Assembly (NCBI GenBank): GCA_004764695.1
Contig: SMSO01000025.1
Location: 3,814,102 to 3,878,101 of the forward strand
From: Schizochytrium sp. TIO01
Lineage: Eukaryota > Sar > Bigyra > Thraustochytrida > Thraustochytriidae
Direction: 5' to 3'
DNA: 64,000 bases
The position numbers and the translations under genes were made by a program. Positions 1 to 31,657 of the stretch are shown piece by piece. How positions within the stretch are numbered: position 1 is the first letter of the stretch; each line of letters starts with the position of its first letter. Below the pieces are notes generated by a model that worked only from the letters and a program-made list of their open reading frames with translations, was not told the origin of the DNA and did no database searches.

Positions 1-3000
1 TTCTTGTGGGCGGATGTCTTGATCAAGAATGCATTCAACCTCTGGGTCAAATCCAAGAGGATAATCCACATCAGGGGTTGGCGCGGTGTTCGCTCGTCCG
101 GCAGAATCTCCACCTTCAGTGCGCGCCGCAACAGCAGCGGCCATACCTTCAATAGATGGGTCAGCGAAAAAGACTGAAATCGGCAGGTCTACACCAAGGT
201 TCTCTTGGACCATCGCAAGCAGCTGTGTAGCTGCAAGAGAATGCCCACCAAGATCGAAAAAGTTATCATGGATACTAATTGACTGTAAACCCAGCGTTTC
301 TTTCCACAGGTCTGCGATAACAACTTCCTCCATGGACCTTGGCGCAACAAGAGCTCGAAGTGCTTGGCCATGTGCATCATGGGCACTTTCTGTAGGGGGT
401 GGTAGGGCCCGACGATCAATCTTACCATTTGCTGTTAATGGTAGTTCGTCCATGAAAACCCATGCAACAGGAACCATATATGAAGGAAGTTTGTCCTTCA
501 CCAAACTCTGTAAAGCGTGGATTCGCTCTACTTCACCATAGGTATCTTCTTCAGATTCTGAAGAAATAACAACGTAAGCACATAGTCGCTGCTGACCAGG
601 CACATCCTCTCGTGCAACGACACACGCTTCAAGAACACTAGGATGCTGCTTAAGAACTGATTCAATCTCGCCTAATTCCACGCGCATGCCGCGGATTTTG
701 ACCTGAAAGTCAACACGACCTATGAACTCGATATTGCCGTCGCGTTGAAAGCGCACACGATCTCCAGTACGATAGAGCTTAGAACCCTTCAGATAGGCCA
801 GTTCAGGTGTGTGCTCTACAATAGCAGCTATTGATTGAGGAAAATCAATGAATCGATCTCGCGTAAGCTCAGGACGGCCAAAGTAGCCGCGCGCAAGGCC
901 AGGTCCTGCAATGCAGAGTTCTCCCGCGACCAGGGCGGGGACTGGCTCAAGGAACTCGTCAAGAACGAAAGCTGCAAAGTTATCAAGTGGTTTTCCAATG
1001 CATGGGGCCAGAACAGCCTTTTGGTTCTGTAGTCCCTTGGTCGATAGAAGGAGTGAGTTTGTGACAAAATAGGTACACATAATTGTACCTTCCGATGGCC
1101 CATAATGGTTATCCAGACGAAAAGGCACAGTGGAAAGGACATCACGAGGTACGTGCAGTTTATCACCACCACCGTACACAACGCGAAGGCTTGATGGCCA
1201 CTGCTGTGAAGTTGATGACTTTGTACGTAGAAAGACCTCTAGAAGCGGGGTGGGGAGCAAAGAGACCGTGATGCGGTCATTATGAAGACATGTGCGCAAT
1301 GCATGAAGATCCTTCTTTTGCTCATCCTCAACAAAGTGCACGGAGGCGCCCACTGAGAGGAAAGGCCAGATCTCAAGACCAACAGGGTCAAAGGCTGAGC
1401 CGACAAGCTGTGAAGCACGGTCTTTGTTTGAGAGTTCATAAATTCGAACATGCCAGTTGATGAGATTGACCATCGATCGATGCTCCACGAGAACGCCTTT
1501 GGGATTTCCAGTACTCCCTGAAGTATAAATCATGTATAACGTGCTACGAGAACCATGCCATTGCTGAGCATTTGAGCCCCATGACGAAGAAGCTGGCGGG
1601 GGTAAATTTGTCACTGCTCGGATCGCTCCAAACGCTCGCTCAACCTTACTTGCAATGCGATCCCAGCGCAAGTCAACAGGAATAATTAGCGGGAGATTTG
1701 GGATACTCTCGAGGCCCTGATGGCTTAACAGTTGCAATGAATGCCGATCGCAGAGAAGAACACGCATCTGCGAATCCTTGAAAACATAGGTAAGGCGTTC
1801 TTGCGGCCAGGAAACATCCATAGGAACGTAAGCGCCTCCAGCTTTTGCAACAGAGAGCATACCCAAAATCATGTTGGGTGAACGCTCCATAAACAAGCCC
1901 ACATTCACTGAAGGTTCAACCCGACAGCGGTAACGCAAGTAGCGCGCAAGCATGTTTGCTCTTGCATTCAGCTCGCCGTAGGTCCAAGTCCTACCTCGCC
2001 ATGCCACAGCGCATGACAAAGAATTAGCCTCTGCACAGGCTTCGAAGAGTGCGTGTACACATGTGAACTGATCAAAGTCGCGCTTGGTTTGGTTCCATTC
2101 GGAAAGAATGAGCCTTTTTTCAGACTCGGTAAGAATTGGCAAACGACAGTACAAGCCTTGCGGGTTTTCCGCGCTGCCGTGGATTAACTGCTGCAAGTGG
2201 TCAGCGAAGCGAAGAATGGTGTCTTCGGCAAACAGCGCAGTTTTATACTGTAAGCCAGCACGGAGCCCACCCTCTTCTGTTTCAGATTTGGTGATGATCA
2301 ACTGAAGGTCATAAGGCGATGCTTCCTGAATAACATCCCTGCGAAGTTTCATTTTTAAATGCGATCCAACCGTAACGGTTTCTCCAGACTCAAGCCGCGC
2401 CAACGAAGGCGTTTCTTTAGATTCAGCTGAAAAGGATTGATTAAGCGACAAGAGGACCTGAAAAATAGGGCTACGTCCCGCACTACGGTGAGCAGCCATT
2501 TTCTCAACGAGAACAGCAAAGGGGTACTCTTGATGCTCGAATGCAGAGAGGACAACAGTTCGGGCTTGCCTTAGCAAACTACGGAAGTGGTCCTCCTTAC
2601 TTACGTGCATGCGTAATACGACAACATTTGTGATGTTTCCGACAGTACGATCAAGTTCGGGTACAGTGCGACATGCCATCGGAGTACCAATAAGAATATC
2701 CTCTTTCCCGGTGTATCGATACAATAGACCAGCATAGAAGGCCACCAGTGCCATGAATAGGGTTGCACGTTCCAGGTGTATCGCCTCTTGCAGCTTAACT
2801 AAACTTGCTGCGTCCAGATCAAAAAAGTGCCAGGCTCCGTCTCGAGTTGATACGTTTGATTCTTGCTGTGCTGAAGAAACTATAGACTCCGTGGGATCAG
2901 ATTCCACAGGAAGGTCAAGAGATGCTTCGTGGCCAGCCAGCTGGCGTTGCCAAAAACTCCATAACCTCGAACCGGCTGAAGAATTCATTTCCTCTTTTTG

Positions 3001-6000
3001 TAACTTCGCAAACTCCGCCACAGTCATTGTTGGCTGAGAAGGCCGCACAATTGATGTTTCAGATACTGCAGCATCATACATTTCACCAAGATCCTCCAAT
3101 AAGACATCAAGTGACCATCCATCCATGGAAATATGATGAGCAGTAAGAAGCAGAACCGGGTGTTTGTTACTATCAACAAAAAGACGTGCTCGAAACGGGG
3201 CATTCCGAGTCAAGTTCCATGGACGATGCAGTTCTGCTTGCAAGAGCTCATGTAATGTTTCTTCGGAAGCTTGGGGATCCATGTCCGCGACAAAGTCAAC
3301 CTTGTTGGGCGCCAAAGCATCCCCATCATTGTGGACATCATTGTCATTATCGTCCTTTGCTTCGGACACTTCCAGATGTAACTTGGAAGGGACTTCATCT
3401 TGCTTCGAGGTGAGTGGAGGATAAACGATCTGGTATGGAACACCGTTTTCTTCTCCATACATTGTGCGCAAGGAAGGGTGGCGATTCACAAGCCCTTGTA
3501 GTGCAGTACGAAGATACCCAACATCTACTATCTTGTGTTTTTCATCTTGATCATTTTCTTCGAATAAAGCTTCGAGTGTGCAACAGACATGGACTACATA
3601 GTCGACACGCTTGGGATCCATTTTATGCATGAACCAGAGAGATTGCTGATTGTATGAAAGAACACAAATTTCAGGTGTTTTGCCGGATGAGGATGGTGCA
3701 ATGTTTGCTTTCTTAGTGGCTGCATTGAGCTTTTGAAGCCTTTCTTGCAACGCTTGCTGAGCACGCATGCTTCCAGACCACATTGGAGTATGAGCCATGG
3801 TCAATGGTGTCGTGAGATATTCAGAGTCCATCATCTGGCTATTGGATGAAGAACCTCCTTGATGGTAGCCACTTGTGTTATCAGACTCGAGAGAACCCCC
3901 AGGGTGTTGAGGGTCAGAAGATGGAGTCTGACCTTCTCTCACACGACGTAATGTTGATGATGTGTGCGATGTGGACAAAAGGCTTCCGCGCTCCTCTTCT
4001 GTGCGTGGGTAAAGACTTCCGACACCATCCCGACGGGCAGGTGCACGCCTTTCTTGAAGCCACTCACTAATCCCTGTATCGCGCAAACTTGAGGATACGA
4101 AAGAAGTGGAAAGACGCTTTGTTGTGGTAGGAGCACCAATAAGGGCGCCCTGGGGTGCTCCGTTGTTTTGATTTTGAGAACGTGATGAAGGTCCACGCAA
4201 GCTACTGCGCATGGAGAATGCCTGCGGTGTAGGACTAAAACGAACTGACGGGGTCTCGTAAAGACCCTTGATCTGAGATCTTGATCCACTTGGGGCGCTC
4301 GCACCGCCAGCACCTGTAATGGGCGTTTTTGCTTTAGCGGAGTTGATGTACATGACTACAGATTTTAGAGTCGGGGACTGAAGAAACTTCGAAAGGGGCA
4401 TATCAATGCCAAATTCTCCACGTAGTTTGCTCATCATACGCGCTGCTGATAAGGAGTGACCACCTTCTTCGAAAAAATCCATAGTTGCTTCCATTTCATT
4501 CGGGTTTCTCCCAAGGGCATCGGCGAAAATCTTACGAACGGTTTGCGCAAGGTCCGAACTAACATCAAGTCCACGTATAGACCTGGATCCAACCGTTGAC
4601 CCAGAGTCACGCCGCTTTCCTAAGGACGTCGATCGAGCCGTGCCCTCCCCATCATCGGCTGGTTTACCTTCTTTCTTTTCCACAGTTTCTGAGGCTTGCG
4701 GATCCGGTAAAGCACGACGGTCAACTTTATGATTCTGAGTGAGCGGGAAGGCTTTTAGGAAGACGATCATACTTGGAACCATGAAGTTTGGAAAACAAGC
4801 ACCTAAGAATTTGCGAAGGTCTGACGAAGTGGCTTGAGTACCCTCGCGTACAATCACATAACCAACGAGGAACTTGTCGCGGTCGCGCTGGCGTACGACC
4901 ACAACGGCTTCTTTCACCGAAGGATGCTGCAGCAGCTCTGATTCGATAGCCACAAGCTCTATGCGGTTGCCTCTGATTTTCACCTGTGTATCCCTTCGCC
5001 CCATGAACTCAACGTGACCATCCTCACGCCAGCGCACGAGATCGCCTGTTCGGTACATACGTGGATAGTCCTTCAATATGGGTGCAAGATCAGCAGCAAG
5101 GTCCTTAGGGACCGGCAGAAAACGCTCTTTGGTGAGTTCAGGGAGATTAAAGTAGCCACGTCCAACTTGAATACCAGCGATAAAAAGCTCTCCAAAGACA
5201 CCAATAGGTAAAGGTGTAAGGTGCTCTTGATCTAGAATTAAACAAGCGACACCCGATGCAGGCTTGCCGATTGAAGGAGGTTCTCGCATACCTGGAGGAA
5301 CTGTAGTCATGGTGGCATTAACAGTGGTTTCTGTTGGACCATAGATATTCACCAGACGATATGGGGCATCTGAGCGAGTTCCAAAGTGCAGACGGTCTCC
5401 ACCAGTATAAATGAGACGCAATGCGCCAAGCTTGGCACGAGGTCGCGCAGAATCCTCTTCGAGAACCATTTCGCAGAGTTGGGTAGTGAGGAAACCCATA
5501 CTTACACGGTTTTCGACAACCCAATCTAGAAAACGCGGTGCCACAACGCTAACATCTGAGTCCGTGACCGGTACCAAACATGCTCCGACAGCCAGAGTAG
5601 GCCAGGTGTCAGCAATAGACGCATCAAATGCTAGTCCGGCACAGGCGAATACCCTATCCTCTTCCGTCATTTGGTAGTATTTGATATGCCAGTGAATGTA
5701 ATTCACAATAGAGACATGTTCAAGAAGCACTCCTTTGGGTTTTCCGGTTGATCCAGATGTAAAAATAGCATAAGCAAGCTGCTTGCATGAATGACGGGGG
5801 TCATAAATCTGAGTCTCACTTGCCAAGGAAATGACATTATCCCAATCTCGATCAACGACAATTTGCCGACCCTCAAAGCTTTCCGGAATGCCTTGCACCA
5901 AAGAGGCCTCTGTGAGGATTACAGTTGAATTGGCTTCGTCAAGCATGGTTCGAACACGTTCCGGAGGATACTTAGGATCCATTGGCATAATCACGCCACC

Positions 6001-9000
6001 AGCTTTTAAAATCGCAAGCCACGACACTGTTAGATGAGCAGTACGAGTCATGAAAACTGGAACGAGCGTTTCATGTCGAACTCCTGCAAAGCGCAAAAAG
6101 TTGGCCAAGCGGTTTGACCGAGAGTTCAGTTCTCGATATGTGAGTACCATAGAAGGAGTTTCAACACAGATTTTGTCTGGGGTCTGTGCTGCTTGTCTCT
6201 CGACGAGCTCATGTATTGTAGCCGTGCTGACCTCGGGTGCGGGGCGGGCTTGGTTGAAATCAAACAGAATATGCTTACGCTCCTCTTGAGAAAGCAGTTC
6301 AAGGTCAGAGATATGCAGCCGTTCTGGCTCAGATGCTGCCACTTGCTCAATAATTAATTGCAGACTATTGATAAGTCGAGTCATTGATTTTTCACGAAAG
6401 ATGTCCGTGTTGTAATGAAACGAGGTCGCCAAGCGGTCGTCTTCTAGACACATCATCAATGTCAAGTCAAATTGAGCATGTAAATGCGGGCACGTAAGCG
6501 ACTCCATTTCTGGAACTCCTTCGCCAAAGTTGAGCTTGACCCCGTCAAAACCAAGCAAGGTTTTGGCCAAACCAGGTCGCTTTACATGGGGGCGCTGTAA
6601 CACAAAAGCAACATTAAACATTGGGTTCTCACCAGTGCTACCACTGCTTTGTCCAGCTCCTGACCGGGCTAATTGTTCAACGAGGTAAGGGAATGGTAAT
6701 GCCTGGTTATCAATGCCACGAAGCATCACCGCAGCTACACGGTTCCAGAGCTGAACAAGTGTAGGATCACCTGAAAGATCTGCGCGCACAACGATAGGGT
6801 TCACAAAATAACCAATGATCTTTTCAAACTCCTCACGCCAGCGTCCAGCTGTGGGGACACCAAGTTGTATGTTGTTTGAGCCGGTATATGCTCGAAGTAC
6901 TATGCTGAAACAAGAAAACAAGATAACAGACAGTGTAAACCCGGTCTTCGTACAAATGTCCACAAGTTTCTTTGTGTTTTCAGTTCCGAGTTCAAAGCGC
7001 AAAGCGGAGCCACGAAAAGACTTTACTGCAGGGCGAGGGGCATCGAGGGGCAGTTCCATGTTGTCTCGAGAATTATCATCCCTGTTTTCCTGAAGCTCTT
7101 TCATCCAAAAATCAAGAAGACGCTGACCACGAGGGCCTTCAATGAGACGATGCTGCAGAGCGATGAAGTCTTTGTAGGTGAAGTCAGATTCAAGTGCATC
7201 CGGCGGGGTGGGGTTTCCACGGTAGGCGTCCATCAACCTATCAAGAATAAGGACCATGCTCCAAAGGTCGGTGACAATATGATGAACAACAAGAAGAAAA
7301 ATTTGGGTTCCATCCGGGAGATTTGCGAGACGAAGACGCATTAGAGGACCATTGGCAAGATCAAAGAGCTGGTATGTTTCACGACTTAGCCATGATTTGA
7401 TGGTTTCCATTGAATTAGAATTCAAATCTTCCTCTGACATGTCAACTTTTGCATCAAAAATTGGAATAATGACACGTTCCACAGTGGCATCTGCATGAGT
7501 AGCAGGGATATATTTCGCGCGTAAGGCTTCGCTATCTCTAGTGATCTGTTCAAGAGCTCTGCGAAGCTTCTTCGGATCGAGTGTATTCCCAGGCGTAAGT
7601 CGACATGAGAAAGGAACGTTGTAAGCCTTGCTCGCCCACTCATTTTGGGCTTGGCAAACCAGCCACAATGATTCCTCATTAAACGACGGCATATCGTTAT
7701 AGTCATGGACAGGAAGTTCATCTCCTTCATCCAAAATATCCATATTCTGAGGAAAATCACTTCCCTGAGATGCTTGTGTGCTGGAGTTCCCCAGAGTAGT
7801 TGCTGCGGCATGACAGTACGCCTCAAGCCGAGGAAATTTGTATAAAAGCGAGACAGGAACGTCTGTGTGCAACAGACGACTCATTTGCGCCGTTACACGC
7901 CCAGCACCCAAAGAATCACCTCCTGCTTCAAAAAAGTGCAAGGACCTTGGGTTTGCATGTGACGAATCCTGACTGCTGAGACCCAAAGCTTCACAGAAGA
8001 TTCCCCACATGTTGTCTACCAAAGCGCTATACTTTGTTTTGCCATCGCTCTTGCGCTCAACTTGCAAGCGAATGTTAGAGCTTGTAGGCCCAGATGGCGA
8101 ATCCTTGCCACTATTATCAGAACCCGCCGCTCCATCTGAGGAACCATGACCCGTCCCCGGTGCTGGAAGACTTCTTCGATCAACTTTGTGATTTGGTGTG
8201 AGCGGAAAGCTTTCCATCTCAACAAAGGCAGAAGGTACCATAAAAGACGGAAGTTCTGATGCCAGGCTAGCTCGAATCTGACCAGCAAGTACACCCGGTG
8301 CCTCATCAGTAAAATTATCCTTGGCGATAAAGTATGCTACAAGACGCTTATTACCTGGTGTATCTTCACGTGCAATAACGATAGCTTCTTTAACTCCCTC
8401 GCATGACAGCATCGAACTTTCAATAGCCGTAAGTTCGACACGGTTTCCACGAATCTTTACTTGGGTATCAATTCGCCCAAGGAAGTCAATCTGGCCATCA
8501 GGCAGCCAACGGCAGAGATCACCAGTACGATACATGCGTGTCGTTCCAACATCAAACGGGTTAGAGATGAACTTTTCTGAAGAGACCTCAGGCATGTTTA
8601 AATAGCCTCGAGCCAGTTGCACGCCGGATAGGAAAAGTTCGCCGTACACACCAACAGGCACTGGCGTAAGCGTTTCTGCTTCAAGAATGAAACATTGGGT
8701 GTTTGGAGCGGGCGATCCAATTGATGGAGGAACACGCAACCCCTCTGGAACATAGCACATTGTTGAGTTGACTGTATTTTCTGTGGGACCATAAATGTTT
8801 ACGAGCTCGTAACGGGCGCCCATACGTGTGCCCATGTGCAATCGATCACCGCCTGTATAGACGAGCCGGAGAGTTCGCAGATCTTGGCGTGGGTGTGACG
8901 CATCCTCCTCAAGGAACATTTCACAGATTTGGGTTGTCAGAAAACCCATCGTGGCCCTTTCACGAATGATCCACTCAATAAGACGGGGCGGGACAACCGC

Positions 9001-11208
9001 AACATCAGGATTGACAATCGGAAGAAGACAAGCGCCAACAGAAAGAGTAGGCCACGTGTCTGCAATGGAAGCATCAAAAGCTAGACCTGCACAAGCAAAC
9101 ACGCGGTCATCTTCAGTCATACGATAGTACTCAATATGCCAACGAATATAATTTGCAAGAGATCCATGCTCTAACATTACACCCTTGGGTTTTCCAGTGG
9201 AGCCACTGGTGTAGATTACATAGGCCAGGCTAGATAACTTCGACTGGCGCTCCTCTGCAGATGGAGGGGGCGGAGGTTGGCGACTGCCTAGCTGAATTGC
9301 ACGATCCCAGTCGCTGTCAACGTTAACAAGGCGCGGCGAGGTTCCCGCAAAAAGATCTTCAAGACTCGACTCTGTTATGGCTATTTTCGCATTCGCGTCT
9401 TCTAGCATGACCTGGATACGGGATGCGGGAAATTTGGGATCAGTCGGCATAATCGCACAACCTGCTTTAAGGACAGCAAGCCACGCAACAGTCAACATAG
9501 GTCCGCGGTGCAACAGGACCATTATGGGATCCTGTGGTGCAACTCCAAGAAGCTGAAGAAAGTTAGCTAACTGATTTGCTCGTGCGTCAAGCTCACGGTA
9601 TGTCAAACTTTCACGGCCTCCATGGGCAGAAATTGCAACTGCATCGGGGGTACGTTTGGCAGCACGCTCAACAAGTTCATGCACACAAAGGTCTTGCATG
9701 TCTGGAGCAAAAGTGCGGGATGTCTCATTGAATTTACGTATAACGAGGTCTTCCTCAGCGGGGGGGATAATTCGAAGGTCTGAGATGCGGGCTTCAGCAA
9801 AGCGTTGAACCACATCTTCCAATAGTGTTTGAAGGTGTACACCCATGCGCGCTACAGTATTTTCAGAAAGCGCGTGCATATTGTAGTGCAAGGCTAGACG
9901 GAACACGGGTGAAGTAGTACCTACGAGTCGTATATCATCTGTACATTTCTCTACCATGAATTGGTGGGGAATGGGTTGCATTCGCACGCCACCAAATGTC
10001 AGTGGTTTGCTGAGTTGCTGCTGAAGCTGATAGGAGGCAATCTGAGAGGTGTCCATGGAAGAGAGCACGGAGGACTGATCATCCAGCCTACCATCCGAAC
10101 CGATCATGCTCCCTTGTTCAAGGCCCAGCACAAAACGCATTACTCTGGAGCTGATCAGTGGTAGGCCATAGTCCTCAACAATGTTTCCATACATTTCAAC
10201 GCCAGCGGAGTATATTGGTTCTGAATTGTTTCCAATTGCCTGAAGAATTTCTGTAAGGGGAACATCAGCATTGTTTTCAGCATCAACAAGAGCCTGATTC
10301 ATGCGATCTGAAAACTCTCTCATGGATGGGTGATCTGCACTTTGTACGCGGAGAGGAACCCAATTTTCAAATGAGCCTACAATATTCTTCAATTCTGCGT
10401 GCTGTGTCCTGCCAGAGATATGACAACCAAGAATGATGTCTGTTTTGCCCGTATATTTGGAAAGAAGAGTATGGAAGGATGAGATTAGTAGCACGCGTAA
10501 AGAAATGTGTTCCTGCACAGCGAGTGTGCGAAGTTTATCGCCAAGCTCTGGTGGCAAGTTGATCACCGATTGTGCAACAAGGTTCTTCCGAGGTTGCGAG
10601 CTTGTTGAAGGCAGTGTGACAGACGGGGCCAATGATCGAGTGCAAGCCGGTTCTGGCGGAAGTTCCAGCTTTGGAAGTGGTCCTGCAAGTTCGTGTTGCC
10701 AAAAAGACATTTGTGTGTCCTCTCCCGAAGCTTTCACAGCTTCCCGTTGTTCGGCGCGCCATGCTTTGTAGTCTTCATACTGTACCTCGAGCGGCGAGAG
10801 AGTAAAGCTGATGCCTGATTCATACAGCAACTTCACATCCGAAATGAGCAAGCAAAATGACAAGGGATCCACAAACTTTCGGTTGGCTAGCATCGCTAGG
10901 ATATCTTTGCCAGGGTAGCATCTTATGATACGAACCACGAGCACATGGCTTTGGTCTGGGTCGCTGAAACTAACATCTGCAAGATTGTTTTGCACAATTT
11001 CCGAGTCGGATTTGCCCTCAACGGCCTCGGAGTCATCAACCAGAATACGAAAATCAAGCTTTTCAGGTCCTGCTAGCAGCGCCTGCCGCTCACAGGCTCT
11101 CAGTATACTGCTTTCGAGCGCCTCGGCATCCAGGCTCCCCACGCTCGACGCCACAAACTGCACCACAGAGAGGCCCTCTACGCCGCGGTTCCCGGCGACC
11201 TCCACCAT
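1..11208 (-). CDS. Multimodular non-ribosomal peptide synthetase, C*-A-T-C-A-T-C-A-T-(reductase); 3' end beyond window
   Basis: A single open frame of 3,736 codons runs from the ATG at 11208-11206 to base 1 without a stop; an in-frame TAG at 11275-11277 fixes the start. Approximate domains (residues): C1 1-480, A1 490-1020, T1 1060-1120, C2 1165-1640, A2 1640-2170, T2 2215-2290, Ser-rich linker 2290-2505, C3 2505-2975, A3 3035-3605, T3 3620-3680. Adenylation signatures TSGSTGKPKG (from 667 and 1817) and TSGSTGNPKG (3229), YGPTE/YGPSE, and K(V/I)DRR are present. Carrier serines lie in GGDSL (1099), GGHSL (2252) and GGHSL (3657). Condensation motifs are HHIVTDL (1309) and HHISMDG (2691); C1 has NRKFVDP (109-115), so both histidines are lost. 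The last residues (EVECILDQDIRP) resemble the entry to Lys2-type thioester reductases, predicting reductive release. The enzyme would activate amino acids with ATP and join them on phosphopantetheine arms. No intron is visible. The product is unknown. Confidence 0.95.
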   Translation of the reverse strand, partial: MVEVAGNRGVEGLSVVQFVASSVGSLDAEALESSILRACERQALLAGPEKLDFRILVDDSEAVEGKSDSEIVQNNLADVSFSDPDQSHVLVVRIIRCYPGKDILAMLANRKFVDPLSFCLLISDVKLLYESGISFTLSPLEVQYEDYKAWRAEQREAVKASGEDTQMSFWQHELAGPLPKLELPPEPACTRSLAPSVTLPSTSSQPRKNLVAQSVINLPPELGDKLRTLAVQEHISLRVLLISSFHTLLSKYTGKTDIILGCHISGRTQHAELKNIVGSFENWVPLRVQSADHPSMREFSDRMNQALVDAENNADVPLTEILQAIGNNSEPIYSAGVEMYGNIVEDYGLPLISSRVMRFVLGLEQGSMIGSDGRLDDQSSVLSSMDTSQIASYQLQQQLSKPLTFGGVRMQPIPHQFMVEKCTDDIRLVGTTSPVFRLALHYNMHALSENTVARMGVHLQTLLEDVVQRFAEARISDLRIIPPAEEDLVIRKFNETSRTFAPDMQDLCVHELVERAAKRTPDAVAISAHGGRESLTYRELDARANQLANFLQLLGVAPQDPIMVLLHRGPMLTVAWLAVLKAGCAIMPTDPKFPASRIQVMLEDANAKIAITESSLEDLFAGTSPRLVNVDSDWDRAIQLGSRQPPPPPSAEERQSKLSSLAYVIYTSGSTGKPKGVMLEHGSLANYIRWHIEYYRMTEDDRVFACAGLAFDASIADTWPTLSVGACLLPIVNPDVAVVPPRLIEWIIRERATMGFLTTQICEMFLEEDASHPRQDLRTLRLVYTGGDRLHMGTRMGARYELVNIYGPTENTVNSTMCYVPEGLRVPPSIGSPAPNTQCFILEAETLTPVPVGVYGELFLSGVQLARGYLNMPEVSSEKFISNPFDVGTTRMYRTGDLCRWLPDGQIDFLGRIDTQVKIRGNRVELTAIESSMLSCEGVKEAIVIAREDTPGNKRLVAYFIAKDNFTDEAPGVLAGQIRASLASELPSFMVPSAFVEMESFPLTPNHKVDRRSLPAPGTGHGSSDGAAGSDNSGKDSPSGPTSSNIRLQVERKSDGKTKYSALVDNMWGIFCEALGLSSQDSSHANPRSLHFFEAGGDSLGAGRVTAQMSRLLHTDVPVSLLYKFPRLEAYCHAAATTLGNSSTQASQGSDFPQNMDILDEGDELPVHDYNDMPSFNEESLWLVCQAQNEWASKAYNVPFSCRLTPGNTLDPKKLRRALEQITRDSEALRAKYIPATHADATVERVIIPIFDAKVDMSEEDLNSNSMETIKSWLSRETYQLFDLANGPLMRLRLANLPDGTQIFLLVVHHIVTDLWSMVLILDRLMDAYRGNPTPPDALESDFTYKDFIALQHRLIEGPRGQRLLDFWMKELQENRDDNSRDNMELPLDAPRPAVKSFRGSALRFELGTENTKKLVDICTKTGFTLSVILFSCFSIVLRAYTGSNNIQLGVPTAGRWREEFEKIIGYFVNPIVVRADLSGDPTLVQLWNRVAAVMLRGIDNQALPFPYLVEQLARSGAGQSSGSTGENPMFNVAFVLQRPHVKRPGLAKTLLGFDGVKLNFGEGVPEMESLTCPHLHAQFDLTLMMCLEDDRLATSFHYNTDIFREKSMTRLINSLQLIIEQVAASEPERLHISDLELLSQEERKHILFDFNQARPAPEVSTATIHELVERQAAQTPDKICVETPSMVLTYRELNSRSNRLANFLRFAGVRHETLVPVFMTRTAHLTVSWLAILKAGGVIMPMDPKYPPERVRTMLDEANSTVILTEASLVQGIPESFEGRQIVVDRDWDNVISLASETQIYDPRHSCKQLAYAIFTSGSTGKPKGVLLEHVSIVNYIHWHIKYYQMTEEDRVFACAGLAFDASIADTWPTLAVGACLVPVTDSDVSVVAPRFLDWVVENRVSMGFLTTQLCEMVLEEDSARPRAKLGALRLIYTGGDRLHFGTRSDAPYRLVNIYGPTETTVNATMTTVPPGMREPPSIGKPASGVACLILDQEHLTPLPIGVFGELFIAGIQVGRGYFNLPELTKERFLPVPKDLAADLAPILKDYPRMYRTGDLVRWREDGHVEFMGRRDTQVKIRGNRIELVAIESELLQHPSVKEAVVVVRQRDRDKFLVGYVIVREGTQATSSDLRKFLGACFPNFMVPSMIVFLKAFPLTQNHKVDRRALPDPQASETVEKKEGKPADDGEGTARSTSLGKRRDSGSTVGSRSIRGLDVSSDLAQTVRKIFADALGRNPNEMEATMDFFEEGGHSLSAARMMSKLRGEFGIDMPLSKFLQSPTLKSVVMYINSAKAKTPITGAGGASAPSGSRSQIKGLYETPSVRFSPTPQAFSMRSSLRGPSSRSQNQNNGAPQGALIGAPTTTKRLSTSFVSSSLRDTGISEWLQERRAPARRDGVGSLYPRTEEERGSLLSTSHTSSTLRRVREGQTPSSDPQHPGGSLESDNTSGYHQGGSSSNSQMMDSEYLTTPLTMAHTPMWSGSMRAQQALQERLQKLNAATKKANIAPSSSGKTPEICVLSYNQQSLWFMHKMDPKRVDYVVHVCCTLEALFEENDQDEKHKIVDVGYLRTALQGLVNRHPSLRTMYGEENGVPYQIVYPPLTSKQDEVPSKLHLEVSEAKDDNDNDVHNDGDALAPNKVDFVADMDPQASEETLHELLQAELHRPWNLTRNAPFRARLFVDSNKHPVLLLTAHHISMDGWSLDVLLEDLGEMYDAAVSETSIVRPSQPTMTVAEFAKLQKEEMNSSAGSRLWSFWQRQLAGHEASLDLPVESDPTESIVSSAQQESNVSTRDGAWHFFDLDAASLVKLQEAIHLERATLFMALVAFYAGLLYRYTGKEDILIGTPMACRTVPELDRTVGNITNVVVLRMHVSKEDHFRSLLRQARTVVLSAFEHQEYPFAVLVEKMAAHRSAGRSPIFQVLLSLNQSFSAESKETPSLARLESGETVTVGSHLKMKLRRDVIQEASPYDLQLIITKSETEEGGLRAGLQYKTALFAEDTILRFADHLQQLIHGSAENPQGLYCRLPILTESEKRLILSEWNQTKRDFDQFTCVHALFEACAEANSLSCAVAWRGRTWTYGELNARANMLARYLRYRCRVEPSVNVGLFMERSPNMILGMLSVAKAGGAYVPMDVSWPQERLTYVFKDSQMRVLLCDRHSLQLLSHQGLESIPNLPLIIPVDLRWDRIASKVERAFGAIRAVTNLPPPASSSWGSNAQQWHGSRSTLYMIYTSGSTGNPKGVLVEHRSMVNLINWHVRIYELSNKDRASQLVGSAFDPVGLEIWPFLSVGASVHFVEDEQKKDLHALRTCLHNDRITVSLLPTPLLEVFLRTKSSTSQQWPSSLRVVYGGGDKLHVPRDVLSTVPFRLDNHYGPSEGTIMCTYFVTNSLLLSTKGLQNQKAVLAPCIGKPLDNFAAFVLDEFLEPVPALVAGELCIAGPGLARGYFGRPELTRDRFIDFPQSIAAIVEHTPELAYLKGSKLYRTGDRVRFQRDGNIEFIGRVDFQVKIRGMRVELGEIESVLKQHPSVLEACVVAREDVPGQQRLCAYVVISSESEEDTYGEVERIHALQSLVKDKLPSYMVPVAWVFMDELPLTANGKIDRRALPPPTESAHDAHGQALRALVAPRSMEEVVIADLWKETLGLQSISIHDNFFDLGGHSLAATQLLAMVQENLGVDLPISVFFADPSIEGMAAAVAARTEGGDSAGRANTAPTPDVDYPLGFDPEVECILDQDIRPQE

Positions 11209-11385
11209 CGTGTCGTGATTGCCACGACGGCTCTGCGCCACGCTTGAGACCCCTGGCTCACTGAGGAAGGGTGTCTACGCGCAAACGAGCTGCCGGCACG
11301 CAGCAAACTCCGCTCGGACCCAACCTCGGTCCCAGTTTGAATCTATTTAGTTGAATTCAGGTTTGGATTTGGATTCGGATTTCTG

Positions 11386-24688: not shown

Positions 24689-27205
24689 ATGCCTGATGGC
24701 GCTATATCACCAGCAGTACTTCAAGTCGATAGTGAGGATAATGTCCAGCCAAACCGTCGTCGTGAATCCTTCGCAACACGATACGACCGCAAGTATGCCA
24801 AGCAGGGCTCTGTACTCTTAGACGAGGGTAAAAAGGCAACGGTTCCTCAGCAGATTGTGATTTTCATCCTTGTGCTAGTCTTTGGTCTCCTCTTCTTGTA
24901 CATTTTCAGTGCTCTCCCGTACTGTTTGGGAGGCTCGTTCTACTCCGCTCTCGACGCTCACTACAACCTCTTTAGCTATATTTTCGGATGCTCAGCTGCT
25001 CTAGCTGTTATTCTGTATGTGTTAGACGTCCGATTCTGGAGTGGTAGGTGGCACTACGTTGGACTTTGTCTTATTGTTATCACTGTGCTCGGCTTTTGTG
25101 TGTCTATGCTTTTTGCCACAGAAGCTTACGTCATTGCACCGATTGCTGTCTTTCTCTTTGGTGCACCTATAGTCTTGCTCAGTCTTAAGGTGACGTTGTT
25201 CAGGAAAATGGATCTTCTGGACCTGCTCAACGTTCTGGGTATCTCCCTATGGTTTGTTTTTGCCGCTTCATCTACACTATGGCTAGTGTGGATTATTGTA
25301 AGCGACCACTGGTGGAACTTAAGTACCAAGGTAGTGTTTTACGAGAAAATGACTTGTAACTCCTCAGGAGTTGACCTTGAGACTCTCACGTCAGACTACA
25401 TTGCAAACCTTACATCCGATGAGTACAGCGAGATAAATGAAACTCTCGTCACCTGCACGAGTGCGTTCTTGCTCTGGCTCCTACCTCTGGTTCTTGCTCT
25501 TTGGGCCTTCACTTTCGCAGGCATGCTCTATTTTGTTGCACGCGCTGTGCGTACTTCTCGTATTGCTGACTCTGAGACGAAGGCCCTTGACCCTCTGGCT
25601 CAAGCGTTTCTCATGTTTGTCTCACTTGGTCTTCTTGGTATCTATGCTGCTTCAGGGATCGCTGGTGCTCAAATGGCCCTTACCAACATTGTACTCGCCC
25701 TTGGATTTTTGGCCCTCGTTGTTGCTGGTATAGTGGTGGTAGCGGTCTTCGGATGGAGCGACATTCTTGGTGCTCTTGAAGGGACACCACTTGGCAACCG
25801 AATGCTTGCGTTTATCAATTCGGACTGGGTCAAGGCAATGATGCTAATGCTCACCACCCCTCTGATGTTGATCTACTTCTTTTTGAGTATCATCACTCAA
25901 ACAAATCGCAAACTTTGGTCATGTACGAAGCCCCTTGAACCAGAACATCGCAAGTACATTATGACAGCCAACGCTACCTCAATGTGGCGTTCTGTCTTAG
26001 CCTGGGAGTGGTCCAGCGTCTTGATAAAGACTCTTTGGATCGGAATTCTCTTCTTTCTTTTTGCCGTTGGTGTTACGCGTATTACCACGCTGTTCTTGTC
26101 CTGGCTCAATGGCGTGCTCTCGAGCGTCTCGCTTTTGATAACTACGTTTATCTTCATTGCTGTCGGTATCGTCATGTTTCTTCTGCCCCCGGTGCCTGGT
26201 GTGCCGGTGTACGTGGCTGGTGGTATTATTCTTGTCTCTAGCGCCACGGATCTGCTCACATTTTGGGGCGGTGTGGCCTACACCATGGGAATTTGCTACA
26301 TGCTGAAGATGATCGCAATTATTATTCAACAAAAGGTCTTTGGTGAATATATGGCTTCCCGTAGCGTATGGGTGCGTAGCTTCATTGGTGTAAATAGCGT
26401 TGAGATGCGCGCTATTCGTCGCATTCTCCAGGCACCCGGTATGACTTGGCCTAAGGTTTCTGTTCTTTGCGGAGGACCTGACTGGCCAACTTCTGTGACC
26501 ACTGGCATCCTCAGATTAAATCTGGGTTCTATGCTCTTGGGCTCGCAACCAGTCTTCTTTTTAATTGCCCCGTGTGTGTTAGCAGGTGCTATGTTGCTAC
26601 GTTCTAGCGAGGGTGGCATTTGGTCAAGTGTTTCTACAATGACACTGGCGCTCGCAGTCATCACCCAAAGTGCTGCCATGCTTATTGCAGTGCATTTTAT
26701 TGCCAAGGTATCTGTTGAGGATCGCGAGGAGCTTCTTAAGGAGAAGGATGACGAAGAGGTATTGGAACTTGAAATCAAAAGCCGCAATAAGTTGTACCTT
26801 CACCGTACGATTTCTTCATGGAAGCACATTGGATGGTTTAATCGTATCCTGCTTGCATCATCTTCTCTTTGCATGACCGTTTCGTGTTATATGTTTGAGC
26901 TCTTAGGATCAGAGTGCTTTGTTTCCTTTGAAGTCAGTGACTCAATTGAGGATGACCTTGGAGGAAACGCTCTCAATCTTGTGAAACCTCTTGGCTGGTA
27001 TGCGCTCTTGCTGTTTGCCTACTCGACATGCGTTCTCTTTATCTATAACTTCTTTATGAACCAGGTGGTATCATATGCTTTCAAGAGACCGAACCACTGG
27101 GCTCATGCCGAAGCAAAGGAGCGCTTGGAAGCAGACATAGCAGCAGACAAGGTCCGCGCTTCGCCCTCCGAGGAGGGTAAGATTGGTGAACCCATACAAG
27201 CGTGA
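24689..27205 (+). CDS. Polytopic membrane protein with VTT/DedA-like core
   Basis: 838 residues from a clear ATG, no intron. After a hydrophilic N-terminus (1-50) I count about 16 hydrophobic segments. Between segments 5 and 6 a loop (about 220-262) carries N-glycosylation sequons (NSS, NLT, NET) and two cysteines, suggesting a lumenal or extracellular loop. Near residue 500 the segment FLLPPVPGVPVYVAGGIILV, followed by GGVAYTMGICYMLKMIAIII, resembles the LPxPG...aGG core of VTT (DedA/TMEM41/VMP1/TVP38) proteins, which act as lipid scramblases in the ER and Golgi. A charged cytosolic stretch (EDREELLKEKDDEEVLELEIK) precedes the last two segments. It is much longer than ordinary VTT proteins (about 250-400 residues), so extra N- and C-terminal membrane blocks have been added. 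The VTT link is my inference from one motif; the multi-pass topology is clear. Confidence 0.75.
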   Translation: MPDGAISPAVLQVDSEDNVQPNRRRESFATRYDRKYAKQGSVLLDEGKKATVPQQIVIFILVLVFGLLFLYIFSALPYCLGGSFYSALDAHYNLFSYIFGCSAALAVILYVLDVRFWSGRWHYVGLCLIVITVLGFCVSMLFATEAYVIAPIAVFLFGAPIVLLSLKVTLFRKMDLLDLLNVLGISLWFVFAASSTLWLVWIIVSDHWWNLSTKVVFYEKMTCNSSGVDLETLTSDYIANLTSDEYSEINETLVTCTSAFLLWLLPLVLALWAFTFAGMLYFVARAVRTSRIADSETKALDPLAQAFLMFVSLGLLGIYAASGIAGAQMALTNIVLALGFLALVVAGIVVVAVFGWSDILGALEGTPLGNRMLAFINSDWVKAMMLMLTTPLMLIYFFLSIITQTNRKLWSCTKPLEPEHRKYIMTANATSMWRSVLAWEWSSVLIKTLWIGILFFLFAVGVTRITTLFLSWLNGVLSSVSLLITTFIFIAVGIVMFLLPPVPGVPVYVAGGIILVSSATDLLTFWGGVAYTMGICYMLKMIAIIIQQKVFGEYMASRSVWVRSFIGVNSVEMRAIRRILQAPGMTWPKVSVLCGGPDWPTSVTTGILRLNLGSMLLGSQPVFFLIAPCVLAGAMLLRSSEGGIWSSVSTMTLALAVITQSAAMLIAVHFIAKVSVEDREELLKEKDDEEVLELEIKSRNKLYLHRTISSWKHIGWFNRILLASSSLCMTVSCYMFELLGSECFVSFEVSDSIEDDLGGNALNLVKPLGWYALLLFAYSTCVLFIYNFFMNQVVSYAFKRPNHWAHAEAKERLEADIAADKVRASPSEEGKIGEPIQA

Positions 27206-28069
27206 CTACCTATCCATTCTTTGGAAACGGAGTCTCGAAGACATCGATTGCCGTCCTTGTAGCACCATAATATCCGCACAATCACCTCTTGGTTCACACC
27301 ATACTTAGTTTTCCCATACGAGTTTTTCGAAAAACTGGGAAGAAAAGTTATTTGTTGAAACTTTGTGGGCTAATTAGCTACCCATTTCGCTCATCATACG
27401 TGCGATGTACTCCATTTCTATTCTTTCGTTTTATAAGTACCCCTATCAACTCCTTTGGCAGTCTTCTTCTCTCAGCTTTCGAGAGCGAACGAGGGCCTCC
27501 GATAACGTAAGCACGAATGGATAGAACCTCCTCACAAACACGCAGCAATACTGCATTTGTCGCATCGTCTCCCCGCACATTTTCGTTACAGGGGAACGAT
27601 CCCTCCTCTAATTTTTAATAAATAACCCTCCAACATATGTGTTCTCTTAGTTTTTATATCCTTCGTCCTCTGTTCCAACTAAACCTCTTTCAGCAAAAAT
27701 CATTTGACCACTACTGTGAATCCCTGCATAGCTATATTTTAACCTGGTCAGGGTTTGTGAGTGACAATCATACAACATTGTTATTCTGAGGTAGGGTAGT
27801 AGGTCTATAAGGTAGCTAAAATGCCTCAATCCAAGACCCCTAGTGACACCCGTTATACACCTTTGGAAAAAAAATAACTGTATGGATAATTAGGGTAAAA
27901 TTAAATTTCTTAGACAAGAGACGCAAACCTAACCATCGAAGCCAAAAGCACCAAACTCACCTCCAAAGCCCAAGCTCTTAGGATCGTCCGCCGCAATAAT
28001 CAAGGATAACGCGGCTTGAGCGCCTTAGGCTCGTGGCGCCTTGTCTCGGCGGCTCGCAGTGCGACTTCC
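27206..28069. other. Intergenic region between VTT-like gene and CEP70-like gene
   Basis: An 864-bp spacer with same-direction flanking genes. It should contain the 3' UTR of the first gene and the promoter of the second. It has an A8 tract near 27870 and no RNA gene or coding signal that I can support. Confidence 0.55.
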
Positions 28070-31000
28070 ATGGCATTTAACAGCGACGGCAACGATGGTG
28101 GTCGTTGGGGCCTCGACCAGGAGGATTTGGGCGTGGACGGCGGCTTCTTTAAGGGCAGCGACGAGGGCTCTAACTCCGATGACTTTGCCAACGAACTCGA
28201 GATTTCGAGGGACACTGGGGTTGGAGGTCGAAGTTTAGCATCCTTATCCGTAGTTGACGGTGGCTTGGAAGTAGATCTCGGTGAAGCCACGTTGCAGATT
28301 CACAGCGCTGGCAACATTGATATTAATGTGCGCGAAGGGTCCCCAATGACTAAGAGACTGCCTCATAGCAGTGGGGTTCGACGCGTGAGATCGTCCTCTG
28401 CAAAATATTCCATAGGTTCTACAAACTCTGGGCGATCTGCAAAGGCTGGACCTGGTTCTGCAGCTGGACTTGATGAGTTCTTGCAGCAGCAGGGTTTTGA
28501 CACTTCTGCTATTGAGGGAGACGCCGTTCGCACAGCAGTAAGCTTTGGGGCAGACCTTGGGGACGAGGAGGATCTCGATGAAGACGATGATGGGATTTAT
28601 GGTGATATGCATAATGAGGACGAGGATGATGCAGATGATGAGGACGACCGCGACGAGGAGCTTGAGGATGAGGTCGCAGTGGACTTTGGCAAGTTGTTGC
28701 AAATGGACGAGGATGCTTCTGCGATGGACGGGGACCTGAGTCAAGATGCACATATAGATTCCAGGTCAAGGACTCACCATGCTCATGCTGGAAAGAGTGT
28801 TGATAGTCTCCGTACATCGCTACTTGGGCGGAGTAATGACAGTTTAAACACAAGCCTCGAGGCCCGCCTTAAACGCCTTGAAGTCCTATTGGAGGGTGAG
28901 GCTAATACAAGTCTTGAGGCTAGCCAAGTCAGCATCCAGAACACAGCCGTTAGGGGGCGCACAGCTGTTCAGGGAGGCAAGTCATCGGTACGACAAGAAG
29001 TAGTTGACCTCTCGGAAACAAATGCAAGTCTGGAGGCGAGAATGCAGAGACTGAACAAGCTGCTGCAGAGTACTGAAGGTGAGGATGAAGATGACTCTGA
29101 ATTCTTATCGGGAGCTGTACGTGGTGACTTTGATGACTATATCGCCGAAGGAGATGGAGAGCCCAATGACAGTGAAGAGGCCGAAGGAGAAGAAGAGGAT
29201 GCTTTTCAAGTGCATGGGGAAAGCGACCACGTGTATAGAAACGAAGATAATCATGAAGGCGATGCAGAGCAAGACGAAGAAGAGAATCTCGAGTTTTCAT
29301 CATCCACATTCGAGCCAACTGTACCAGGGGAGGTCCAGGGAAACGGCAGGTATAGCCCCAATAGACTGAGAAGCACTCCGGGTGGCAGACGAAGTGAAAG
29401 TGGCCTTGATAGAACCCCAGCATCAACCACTCCCGCAAGAGGAGGTGTGGGGCGCGACGAGTCTATGGGTGCCGAGGAAGGTCTCGGATTTGATGCGTTG
29501 GATCGCCGTATGAGAGATGATGACACCTTTGAGCGGATGAACCGCGCGCTTCAGCAAGCCGGTTTTCATGCGATTCCGATGCGGGGTTCCGGTGGCCTAG
29601 ATGCAGATGCTTTATTCTCCGAGGTGCGGGATCTGCTTGCGCAGTACAACAGGCGTGGGGAAATGATTCGAGAGCTCACTATGGAGGAATCTTCGAGTCG
29701 TCGCACAGACGAGGAGGCAGAAAACAGGTTGAAAATTGCTCAGCGAGAGGCATCTCGACTTCAAGAGCGTCTCAAATCTGCCGAGGCAGAGGTCCAGGAG
29801 TATAAAGAACAACTCCAGGCATCTCAGCGCGGAGATGCAGATCAGCTACGAAACCTTCAACGTGAGAATGCTGCCCTGCAGCAAAAATTAACCTTAAGTG
29901 AACACCGCGTGCGCGCAAAGGAGACTGAAATGGAGAGGTTGCTGAAGAAACTTGAGGCCGAGACACGCCATAGCACTGCACAGCGCGAACGAACACGCAC
30001 GTTGTTTCGAGAAGTTGTAAAACGAGACCCTCGCACAAATTCACAAGCAGACCAAAAGCTTTTGGATATTGTCGAAGGTTTTGAGACAAAGCAGCATGAG
30101 ATGAATGAAGAACGCGATTTATTGAATGCCGAGATTCGTCGTCTTAACAAAGCCTTGGAGGATCGTGAAAATGAACTAAACGGAAGCCGCGCTTCATCTC
30201 TCGAGGAGATTGAGCGCTCACTTATACGAAAAGCCCGCGATGCAGAACTCGATCAACGTGTCTCCCGCGAAGCCCTTGAAAAGCGAGAGCGCGCAATCAT
30301 TAGCAAACTCAGCAAGCTGGAGGGCCAGCTAGCTGAAGCTCGTCGCGCTGAACAACGTTCACAGGACCACGTTGAGAACCTCAAACTAGAGCTTGCATCG
30401 CGGCCGACGATGCGAGACTGGAAAGCATCACAACACCGAATTGCGAAGCTCGAGTCACAGGTCCAGAGCGCTGTAGAAGCGCTCGAGGAGCAAGAAATTG
30501 CGGAAGCACGCCGCAACAATATCTTCGTGCCCGAGTCCCGTCGTCATGTACATGATGGTGTCACTGGAGGTGGTGGATTTGAGGGACCACGCCATACATT
30601 CAACAAAGAACACTCAGGCGACCATCTCACTGCCCGTGATCGTGTCGAGCTGATGGCAAAAAGAGCAATGGCAGAGACTGAGAATAACCGCCGAAACGTG
30701 AGCACTGCTGAGTTGATCCGTCGTGATAAGCTCAACCACCGTTTAGGTTTGTCCAAATTGACATCCCTTCCCAAGACTGCTGCTCATGAGATCCTGCAAG
30801 ACATTTGCCGCATTTTGGAGCTTTCTGATGTACACATGATTGTTCCAGCTTTGCAGAAAATGTGCTGGGTAGTTCGGGCTATGCCTCGTTTGGAAAAGTT
30901 CACAAAGGATGTGTCAAGCTTTGTGCTTTTGCATGGCGATGAGCTCACTCAGCAGACTACTGATGACATAAGTGGAGGAGTAAACCCCACAAGTACCGCT

Positions 31001-31657
31001 CTGCAAGCGATCCTCCCTCAGTTGAAGCGTTGGGTTAACGATGTGCGGACAGTGTCTGTGTGGCGTAAGTTCCGCGAGGATCTTCTTCACGAGTTGTCTA
31101 GGGCACCGTCCATGGCATTTCCTTCGGGTAACCCAATGCGTAACCGTCAGTCTTGTGATATGACAAATGATCAGATTGTGCAAGCTGTGGGAGACCTTGT
31201 TTCCCTGGAACGCGGAATGATGGATCACCAAGCAGCGTTTCGCGCTGCAGATGAGTATCTGCTGAATAACCCAGATGCATTGATGGCACGAGCTGTTAGC
31301 CATTTTCAACAACTTTTCGAGCTCCGTTCCGTGGAGGGTGTACTTCCGAAAATGAATGAACTATATGTGTATACGAATGAGATGCGCAACTTTATGCAAG
31401 TGGTCCGCCCAACCTTGGGGCTTGGTCCACAAGCCTCTGTGCATGCCTGTTTGGCAAAACTGCAAGAACTCACTATGCCGTCTTCAAGTTCCCAAAGGCG
31501 AGAGGCATCCTCTATGCGAAAAGTCGCAGAAACTGAAGACGATGCTGATGTTAATATGCAAATGAAATTGCAAGATAGGCCGATGCACTCGCGCTTGCGT
31601 CCTGATGAGATTGGCGTACCACAATGGGTGGATACAAGTCAAGACCAAGGAGTTTAA
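28070..31657 (+). CDS. CEP70: CEP70-like centrosomal coiled-coil protein
   Basis: 1,195 residues from the ATG at 28070 (the extension above it has only TTG). Residues 1-480 are acidic and disordered and contain two related short blocks, NTSLEAR-RL-LL (about 260) and NASLEAR-RL-LL (about 318). At about 488 the segment ERMNRALQQAGFHAIPM resembles the N-terminal W/F-xx-N-xx-L-xx-hGF motif of CEP70. A long coiled coil follows (about 530-820). The helical C-terminus includes ILQDICRILELSD and, at about 1078, HFQQLFELRSVEGVLPKMNE, very like the conserved CEP70 C-terminal HFQ-LF-S-GV-P-MNE-Y. CEP70 binds gamma-tubulin at the centrosome and supports microtubule organisation and ciliogenesis. The protein is about twice the length of animal CEP70 (about 600) because of the long acidic N-terminus. 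Family assignment is from recalled motifs, not a search. Confidence 0.8.
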   Translation: MAFNSDGNDGGRWGLDQEDLGVDGGFFKGSDEGSNSDDFANELEISRDTGVGGRSLASLSVVDGGLEVDLGEATLQIHSAGNIDINVREGSPMTKRLPHSSGVRRVRSSSAKYSIGSTNSGRSAKAGPGSAAGLDEFLQQQGFDTSAIEGDAVRTAVSFGADLGDEEDLDEDDDGIYGDMHNEDEDDADDEDDRDEELEDEVAVDFGKLLQMDEDASAMDGDLSQDAHIDSRSRTHHAHAGKSVDSLRTSLLGRSNDSLNTSLEARLKRLEVLLEGEANTSLEASQVSIQNTAVRGRTAVQGGKSSVRQEVVDLSETNASLEARMQRLNKLLQSTEGEDEDDSEFLSGAVRGDFDDYIAEGDGEPNDSEEAEGEEEDAFQVHGESDHVYRNEDNHEGDAEQDEEENLEFSSSTFEPTVPGEVQGNGRYSPNRLRSTPGGRRSESGLDRTPASTTPARGGVGRDESMGAEEGLGFDALDRRMRDDDTFERMNRALQQAGFHAIPMRGSGGLDADALFSEVRDLLAQYNRRGEMIRELTMEESSSRRTDEEAENRLKIAQREASRLQERLKSAEAEVQEYKEQLQASQRGDADQLRNLQRENAALQQKLTLSEHRVRAKETEMERLLKKLEAETRHSTAQRERTRTLFREVVKRDPRTNSQADQKLLDIVEGFETKQHEMNEERDLLNAEIRRLNKALEDRENELNGSRASSLEEIERSLIRKARDAELDQRVSREALEKRERAIISKLSKLEGQLAEARRAEQRSQDHVENLKLELASRPTMRDWKASQHRIAKLESQVQSAVEALEEQEIAEARRNNIFVPESRRHVHDGVTGGGGFEGPRHTFNKEHSGDHLTARDRVELMAKRAMAETENNRRNVSTAELIRRDKLNHRLGLSKLTSLPKTAAHEILQDICRILELSDVHMIVPALQKMCWVVRAMPRLEKFTKDVSSFVLLHGDELTQQTTDDISGGVNPTSTALQAILPQLKRWVNDVRTVSVWRKFREDLLHELSRAPSMAFPSGNPMRNRQSCDMTNDQIVQAVGDLVSLERGMMDHQAAFRAADEYLLNNPDALMARAVSHFQQLFELRSVEGVLPKMNELYVYTNEMRNFMQVVRPTLGLGPQASVHACLAKLQELTMPSSSSQRREASSMRKVAETEDDADVNMQMKLQDRPMHSRLRPDEIGVPQWVDTSQDQGV

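Follow-up and report, generated by a model that had tools for sequence, protein, structure and literature searches.

The thraustochytrid Schizochytrium sp. TIO01, a protist that is probably marine, carries a gene for a nonribosomal peptide synthetase (NRPS) in one stop-free frame of 13,134 bp on the minus strand (4,378 codons, 485.4 kDa). The gene is intact and most likely native to the protist, and there is good reason to regard it as one self-contained assembly line of the protist's own, with the mechanism and history proposed below.

Gene structure

The window (the whole stretch of DNA analysed, 64,000 nucleotides) contains 3,736 codons of the NRPS frame, which is open from window position 11241 to base 1, continues past the left edge and comprises 4,400 codons between the flanking stops. 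The start was placed at window position 11208, the first in-frame ATG downstream of the preceding stop and likewise the end coordinate of the gene in an earlier note on this DNA; the last base of the stop codon (TAA) is located at genome position C24:3812173, 1.93 kb outside the window. According to a simple independent-base model, an equally long stop-free run would arise with a chance of about 10^-102; in the remaining five frames over the same stretch, 149–291 stops occur. Frame and Pfam domains confirm the giant three-module, single-frame NRPS described in the earlier note, the gene being larger than claimed there (4,378 codons versus more than 3,700 residues). The accompanying view that a single exon of this size is out of the ordinary is not borne out in this genome, which has further open frames of 5,651 and 4,151 codons. 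TIGR02813 matches reside in the 5,651-codon frame (C3) as well as in frames of 2,172 and 2,044 codons (C4), and an ACPS match sits within the 4,151-codon frame. Giant uninterrupted frames are thus nothing unusual here, and the single exon of the NRPS gene is ordinary.

Domain architecture

Scanned with Pfam and NCBIfam as two overlapping pieces, the gene yielded ten domains in the order C1-A1-T1-C2-A2-T2-C3-A3-T3-R (C, condensation; A, adenylation; T, carrier; R, thioester reductase). The features, in window coordinates, are:

1..11208, minus strand: NRPS coding sequence, window part (open frame; whole gene reaches genome C24:3812173)
9664..11208, minus strand: C1 condensation domain, degenerate and N-terminally shortened, NRKFVDP in place of HHxxxDG (motif alignment; predicted C fold)
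8152..9729, minus strand: A1 adenylation domain, pocket letters DAAFYGIVNK (Pfam, TIGR01733, pocket alignment)
7819..8031, minus strand: T1 carrier, FFEAGGDSL (Pfam, motif; limits approximate)
6196..7677, minus strand: C2 condensation domain, HHIVTDL (PF00668, motif)
4693..6279, minus strand: A2 adenylation domain, pocket letters identical to those of A1, 54–57 % identity to A1 (TIGR01733, alignment)
4354..4566, minus strand: T2 carrier, FFEEGGHSL (Pfam, motif; limits approximate)
3679..4341, minus strand: T2-C3 linker, about 220 residues, Ser-rich by eye (translation)
2038..3675, minus strand: C3 condensation domain, HHISMDG (PF00668, motif)
388..2094, minus strand: A3 adenylation domain, pocket letters DPLLYGHIMK (TIGR01733, pocket alignment)
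130..318, minus strand: T3 carrier, FFDLGGHSL (Pfam, motif)
1..51, minus strand: start of the R region, mostly beyond the window; TGATGFLG, YAQTKWVAE, Gln and Ser tracts (Pfam, TIGR01746; limits approximate)

By Pfam, the window part contains three each of AMP-binding, AMP-binding_C, Condensation and PP-binding, while NAD_binding_4 lies outside the window; PF00501, PF00668, PF00550, PF13193 and PF07993 all exceed their curated cut-offs. The A domains score 405.9, 404.7 and 372.7 bits with TIGR01733 (cut-off 317.4). All A core motifs searched for are present, the carrier serine in GGxS is found in all three T domains, and the HHxxxD motif is kept in two of the three C domains (C2, HHIVTDL; C3, HHISMDG) and lost in C1. 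Thus, repeated A and carrier domains over cut-off, active-site C motifs and carrier serines together mark a modular NRPS, and the terminal thioester reductase (TIGR01746, 263.4 versus a cut-off of 213.35 bits), which carries both TGATGFLG and the YxxxK motif (YAQTKWVAE), marks one that ends in R. The three modules had been recognized in the earlier note; the reductase, most of it beyond the window, was out of its sight, and C1, one of the three C domains named there, is degenerate. A PKS-NRPS hybrid was ruled out, as Pfam scans covering the whole gene revealed neither ketosynthase nor acyltransferase.

Within the reductase region, three glutamine tracts (22, 10 and 7 residues) and one of 9 serines lie in frame, the longest glutamine tract being coded by CAG and CAA mixed. 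Such long low-complexity stretches might impair the R region. In C2, the HHxxxD motif is directly followed by Leu, versus Gly in 30 of 35 bacterial C domains.

The first condensation domain

C1 has no N-terminal motif and reads NRKFVDP where bacterial C domains, picked for this comparison as near ones, have the first (34 of 35) and second (35 of 35) histidine. The predicted structure (515 residues, 38-row alignment) reached a mean pLDDT of 81 and a pTM of 0.84, and its best PDB matches (among the 50 listed) are mostly NRPS condensation domains, with some X domains (query-normalised TM-score 0.57–0.66). On the basis of fold model, PDB matches and motif loss, C1 is modelled as a condensation-type fold devoid of the catalytic residues. 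An upstream exon supplying the missing N-terminus was also considered: a C-domain profile search of six-frame pieces of at least 15 residues in window 11,101–40,000 returned two chance-level matches only (E 1.4 and 7.4). The tree placement of C1 was discarded, since it was flagged as a meeting of long branches.

Predicted substrates and reaction sequence

The pocket letters of A1 and A2 are identical (DAAFYGIVNK), those of A3 read DPLLYGHIMK. Pocket positions 299 and 301 were read from motifs, with serine-type rows as a check, and the final K was appended (NHKVDRR, NGKIDRR); the list of pocket positions and the Leu and Ser comparison codes are general background. The six bacterial A domains that group with A1–A3 in the tree described below display DAWFLGNVVK (two), DAWFLGHVVK (two), DAFFMGHVVK (one) and DAMYIGIIGK (one), of which we take DAWFLGNVVK to be a leucine-type code. 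Judging by these letters, A1 and A2 most likely share one substrate, which would probably be an aliphatic amino acid. To our knowledge, the pocket letters of none of the three A domains match any code exactly, and A3 has an odd proline at position 236; substrate assignments are therefore guesses. Predictions of this kind have also been described as unreliable in algae (PMC7073580).

In established NRPS enzymology, the order of steps follows the order of domains. Applied to the present gene, a host phosphopantetheinyl transferase would arm T1–T3, whereupon A1 would charge T1 and A2 would charge T2, both with one and the same amino acid (probably aliphatic), and C2 would join the T1- and T2-bound residues. 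A3 would then load a third residue on T3, C3 would form the tripeptidyl-T3 and R would release the peptide with NAD(P)H as an aldehyde, or as an alcohol after a second reduction. C1 would probably serve as a scaffold for A1 rather than as a catalyst. Since C1 is devoid of the catalytic histidines, the N-terminus of the peptide should be a free amine unless otherwise capped. The predicted product is thus likely a linear tripeptide aldehyde or alcohol, or a cyclic imine in case the free amine reacts with the aldehyde.

Small peptide aldehydes acting as protease inhibitors are reported to be made by NRPS (PMC10548850). The likeness to the system of that report concerns the expected product, a short peptide freed by reduction; the system itself, a C-minus NRPS with a tRNA-utilizing enzyme, is unlike the present gene. 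By this analogy, one may guess at a protease-inhibitory peptide aldehyde.

Bacterial relatives and origin

A search with the protein portion encoded in the window found no relative in genome_contigs or viral_contigs. The three-module alignment retrieved 77 loci, with best segments at 27–34 % identity, from the prokaryote genomes searched (the top 80 among 580 relatives kept) and 11 loci at 25–34 % from viral_contigs. On plasmids, 2,516 records matched module 2, all below 60 % identity and the ten listed at 33.7–35.0 %; in five whole genomes, module 2 reached at most 38 % among the matches listed. Phylum-wide module searches, in which sampling was non-exhaustive and one to three candidates were scored per genome in the rows listed, gave for module 3 (i) 15 matches at E ≤ 1e-170 with 38–41 % identity among 292 genomes of Rhizonema's phylum (L013, cyanobacterial search), (ii) 18 matches at E ≤ 1e-165 with 40–42 % identity among 195 genomes of Corallococcus's phylum (L022), and (iii) none at E ≤ 1e-165 among 398 genomes of Brenneria's phylum (L020), an empty result that carries no weight because the search had no positive control. 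The same holds for modules 1–2, for which the 292 genomes of Rhizonema's phylum gave no match at E ≤ 1e-170. With module 3 topping at 41 % and 42 %, neither the cyanobacteria nor the phylum of Corallococcus stands out.

At the level of single A domains, top identities to bacteria are 46.9 % (A1), 43.9 % (A2) and 41.8 % (A3) among the four best-scoring rows per domain, with A3 reaching 47 % on trimmed tree columns; overall, the nearest bacterial A domains in the samples searched are 39–47 % identical. By way of reference, each of the 271 bacterial A domains in the first 77 loci was compared with the A domains of the other loci; the median best identity is 56.5 %, and only 10 of the 271 stay at or below 42.5 %. 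The A domains of this gene thus appear to stand further apart than the majority of bacterial A domains, although the sample was neither random nor exhaustive. No TGATG reductase motif occurs in frames of at least 400 codons in five bacterial module neighbourhoods (L125–L129, 8.8–19 kb), so that a bacterial match with the same reductase ending was not seen there.

Phylogenies of A and C domains had been proposed in the earlier note. In an A-domain tree of 62 rows, the nearest ones out of a 201-row tree and without eukaryotic NRPS rows, A1 and A2 (54–57 % identical) are sisters (SH-aLRT 100), and A1, A2 and A3 all belong to a 9-row set (SH-aLRT 99) together with six bacterial A domains, two from the cyanobacterial search, three from the search of Corallococcus's phylum and one acidobacterial. 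This tree is biased, as five of these six bacterial rows had been fetched for their resemblance to module 3. In the C-domain tree, C2 and C3 sit on long branches with weak inner joins; therefore, no origin is drawn from them. Given module-3-selected rows and the absence of eukaryotic ones, the A-domain tree points to a bacterial-type domain pool and a duplication relating A1 and A2, and to no particular donor. Identities of at least 53.7 % are also found in 163 of the 435 pairs of A domains that share a bacterial locus; the duplication could therefore predate any transfer.

The history proposed here accordingly starts from a bacterial-type domain pool in which A1 and A2 would have arisen from one another, followed by a residence in eukaryotes long enough for host-like codon use and for the Gln and Ser tracts to develop. 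As the trees held no eukaryotic NRPS, both the long residence and a duplication within the eukaryote are indirect conclusions. Two rival accounts of the origin are given below; the earlier note likewise raised bacterial acquisition and an ancient eukaryotic lineage.

One serious candidate, to which we give somewhat less than an even chance, is that the gene was acquired independently from a bacterium (perhaps a cyanobacterial or myxobacterial type) and has long been resident since. It agrees with the common 9-row set of all three A domains and bacterial ones and with the identities of module 3 in the cyanobacterial search (41 %) and in Corallococcus's phylum (42 %). It is weakened by the ceiling of 42 % for any module among the matches listed in any module search, by the failure of either phylum to stand out, by a tree biased toward module-3-like rows and lacking eukaryotic ones, and by the missing reductase motif in the five bacterial neighbourhoods.

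Alternatively, SAR protists may share an old NRPS family, passed on vertically or from protist to protist, of which this gene would be the thraustochytrid representative; we consider this slightly less likely. A survey of 32 algal species reports NRPSs in 7 of them, with function and product mysterious in almost all cases; among them are a 10-domain NRPS with three C domains and 490 kDa in Bigelowiella natans and the same arrangement with 460 kDa in Aureococcus anophagefferens (PMC4661987). The NRPS described here (10 domains, three C domains, 485 kDa) shares domain count, C count, similar mass and a protist host with these by published description; on paper, they are its best match. The lack of a close bacterial relative in the samples is consistent with such a family; the position of the A domains within a bacterial clade speaks against it. 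The tenth domain also requires caution: here it is a reductase, while for the algal enzymes the figure legend of the survey names C, A, PCP, Red and TE, without an epimerase (PMC4661987), and a later survey, in its accessible text, assigns an apparent epimerase to a three-domain B. natans NRPS (PMC7073580). Moreover, for the count of three C domains at least one HHxxxD motif was required (PMC4661987), a criterion under which their first C domain may be either intact or degenerate.

Gene integrity and genomic setting

A decaying gene, with C1 as the first visible loss and a product no longer working, is improbable. The lost C1 motifs, the low-complexity tracts in the R region and the long branches of the C domains would fit decay, but 4,378 codons free of stops and frameshifts, intact A, T and R motifs and HHxxxD kept in C2 and C3 argue for the intact assembly line.

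The assembly comprises 64.06 Mb in 37 contigs, the NRPS-bearing one measuring 5.83 Mb, and no N occurs in the window or in the 10 kb beyond. The ordinary eukaryotic neighbours claimed in the earlier note were found on both sides: TANGO2, an amino-acid transporter and a DnaJ gene on one flank, and a chorismate mutase/prephenate dehydratase-like gene, a myosin with ankyrin repeats and a PH-ankyrin protein on the other. Codon use, for which the same note had proposed a comparison, also follows the surroundings: GC3 is 0.43 versus 0.35–0.63 in 11 neighbouring frames (five of them without Pfam match and perhaps not all genes), and the distance of the NRPS gene to the pooled neighbours (0.07) is the lowest of 12, the gene being also by far the longest, which lowers noise. 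NRPS genes are common among bacteria, and the codon data by themselves would be compatible with a donor of similar composition, but bacterial contamination or a chimeric contig, a concern of the earlier note, is highly improbable in view of the 5.8 Mb contig without N, eukaryotic genes on both sides, neighbour-like codon use, in-frame Gln tracts and no close bacterial match in the samples searched.

The chorismate mutase/prephenate dehydratase-like gene (L004:1440-2642, minus strand) lies about 5.4 kb past the NRPS stop; the vicinity of this amino-acid biosynthesis gene is probably due to chance. Four further frames in the window (24689-27205, 28016-31657, 47185-49452 and 57787-58860; 357–1,213 codons) have no Pfam match at E 0.001.

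Across the 64 Mb genome, PF00668 was detected at three places, all inside this gene (counts are lower bounds), so that this profile search revealed no second NRPS elsewhere. In keeping with the phosphopantetheinyl transferase that the proposed mechanism calls for, PF01648 exceeds its cut-off at three places; two of these lie in short frames (145 and 282 codons). A PUFA synthase, which is not exclusive to labyrinthulomycetes but in combination with the ACPS domain of the 4,151-codon frame points to a thraustochytrid, is encoded on C4 (TIGR02813, 1,157.4 versus a cut-off of 1,010.1 bits). At this locus (C4:591651-617209), TIGR02813 matches successive frames of 1,031 and 2,172 codons, a split that may reflect an intron, a frameshift or two genes; a further KS frame of 2,044 codons is located about 14 kb away on the opposite strand. 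The 5,651-codon frame (C3:857186-871321, plus strand) represents a PKS-like multimodular gene with four ketosynthase-region matches to TIGR02813.

Three other genes combine adenylation and carrier domains. A 1,289-codon A-T-R-short-chain-dehydrogenase protein is encoded on the same contig as the NRPS, about 0.7 Mb away (L103:2460-6329, plus strand; C24 near 4,507,000). Its architecture is that of the fungal ChNPS10 subfamily, dated before the split of the Dikarya (PMC2823734), and occurs here in an apparently non-fungal genome. The second is an ACSF4-type protein composed of adenylation, carrier and beta-propeller domains (L104:1031-4207, minus strand; PF13570 over cut-off), and the third an adenylation-carrier protein with ankyrin repeats at its end (L105:1409-4648, minus strand).

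Relation to known systems

The nearest named NCBIfam models are those of AusA (aureusimine) and MxcG (myxochelin), which share with the present gene the modular C-A-T organization and a terminal thioester reductase after the last carrier. Both AusA and MxcG end in R. The AusA model scores 1,212 bits with the window part and 502 with the piece comprising module 3 and R (equivalog cut-off 2,500), the MxcG model 1,007 and 520 bits, respectively (cut-off 2,300). Three modules, a degenerate starter C domain and a eukaryotic host distinguish the gene from R-terminated bacterial NRPSs. With alpha-aminoadipate reductase (Lys2, A-T-R) it has A, T and R in common and differs by its three modules with C domains; identity with this enzyme was rejected, as TIGR03443 scores 772 bits with the window part, three modules summed, and 504 bits with module 3 and R, both below 1,030.

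For thraustochytrid genomes, antiSMASH results list NRPS among the cluster types, the accessible text naming no NRPS gene (PMC6050695), and no description of an individual thraustochytrid NRPS was found in the accessible text of the open-access literature searched. NRPSs are also described from dinoflagellates (PMC6361889). For two proteins of Pythium insidiosum, a match to DhbF, an NRPS, is listed with about 29 % identity (PMC5841299); thus, NRPS-like proteins are reported in oomycetes too.

Implications

The gene encodes a known kind of NRPS that is rare in such organisms, and a possible shared SAR family is the interesting part of the finding. One may speculate, as an unlikely but attractive extension, that Rhizaria, pelagophytes and labyrinthulomycetes hold an ancient, conserved lone-gene NRPS that makes the same small reduced tripeptide and serves a shared cell function rather than strain-specific defence. 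The present gene provides a complete single-frame NRPS in a thraustochytrid, a member of a group that is grown commercially. If the match to the Bigelowiella and Aureococcus enzymes were true by sequence, the question of an ancient versus a transferred eukaryotic NRPS would become testable, and a workable organism for the product search would be at hand as well.
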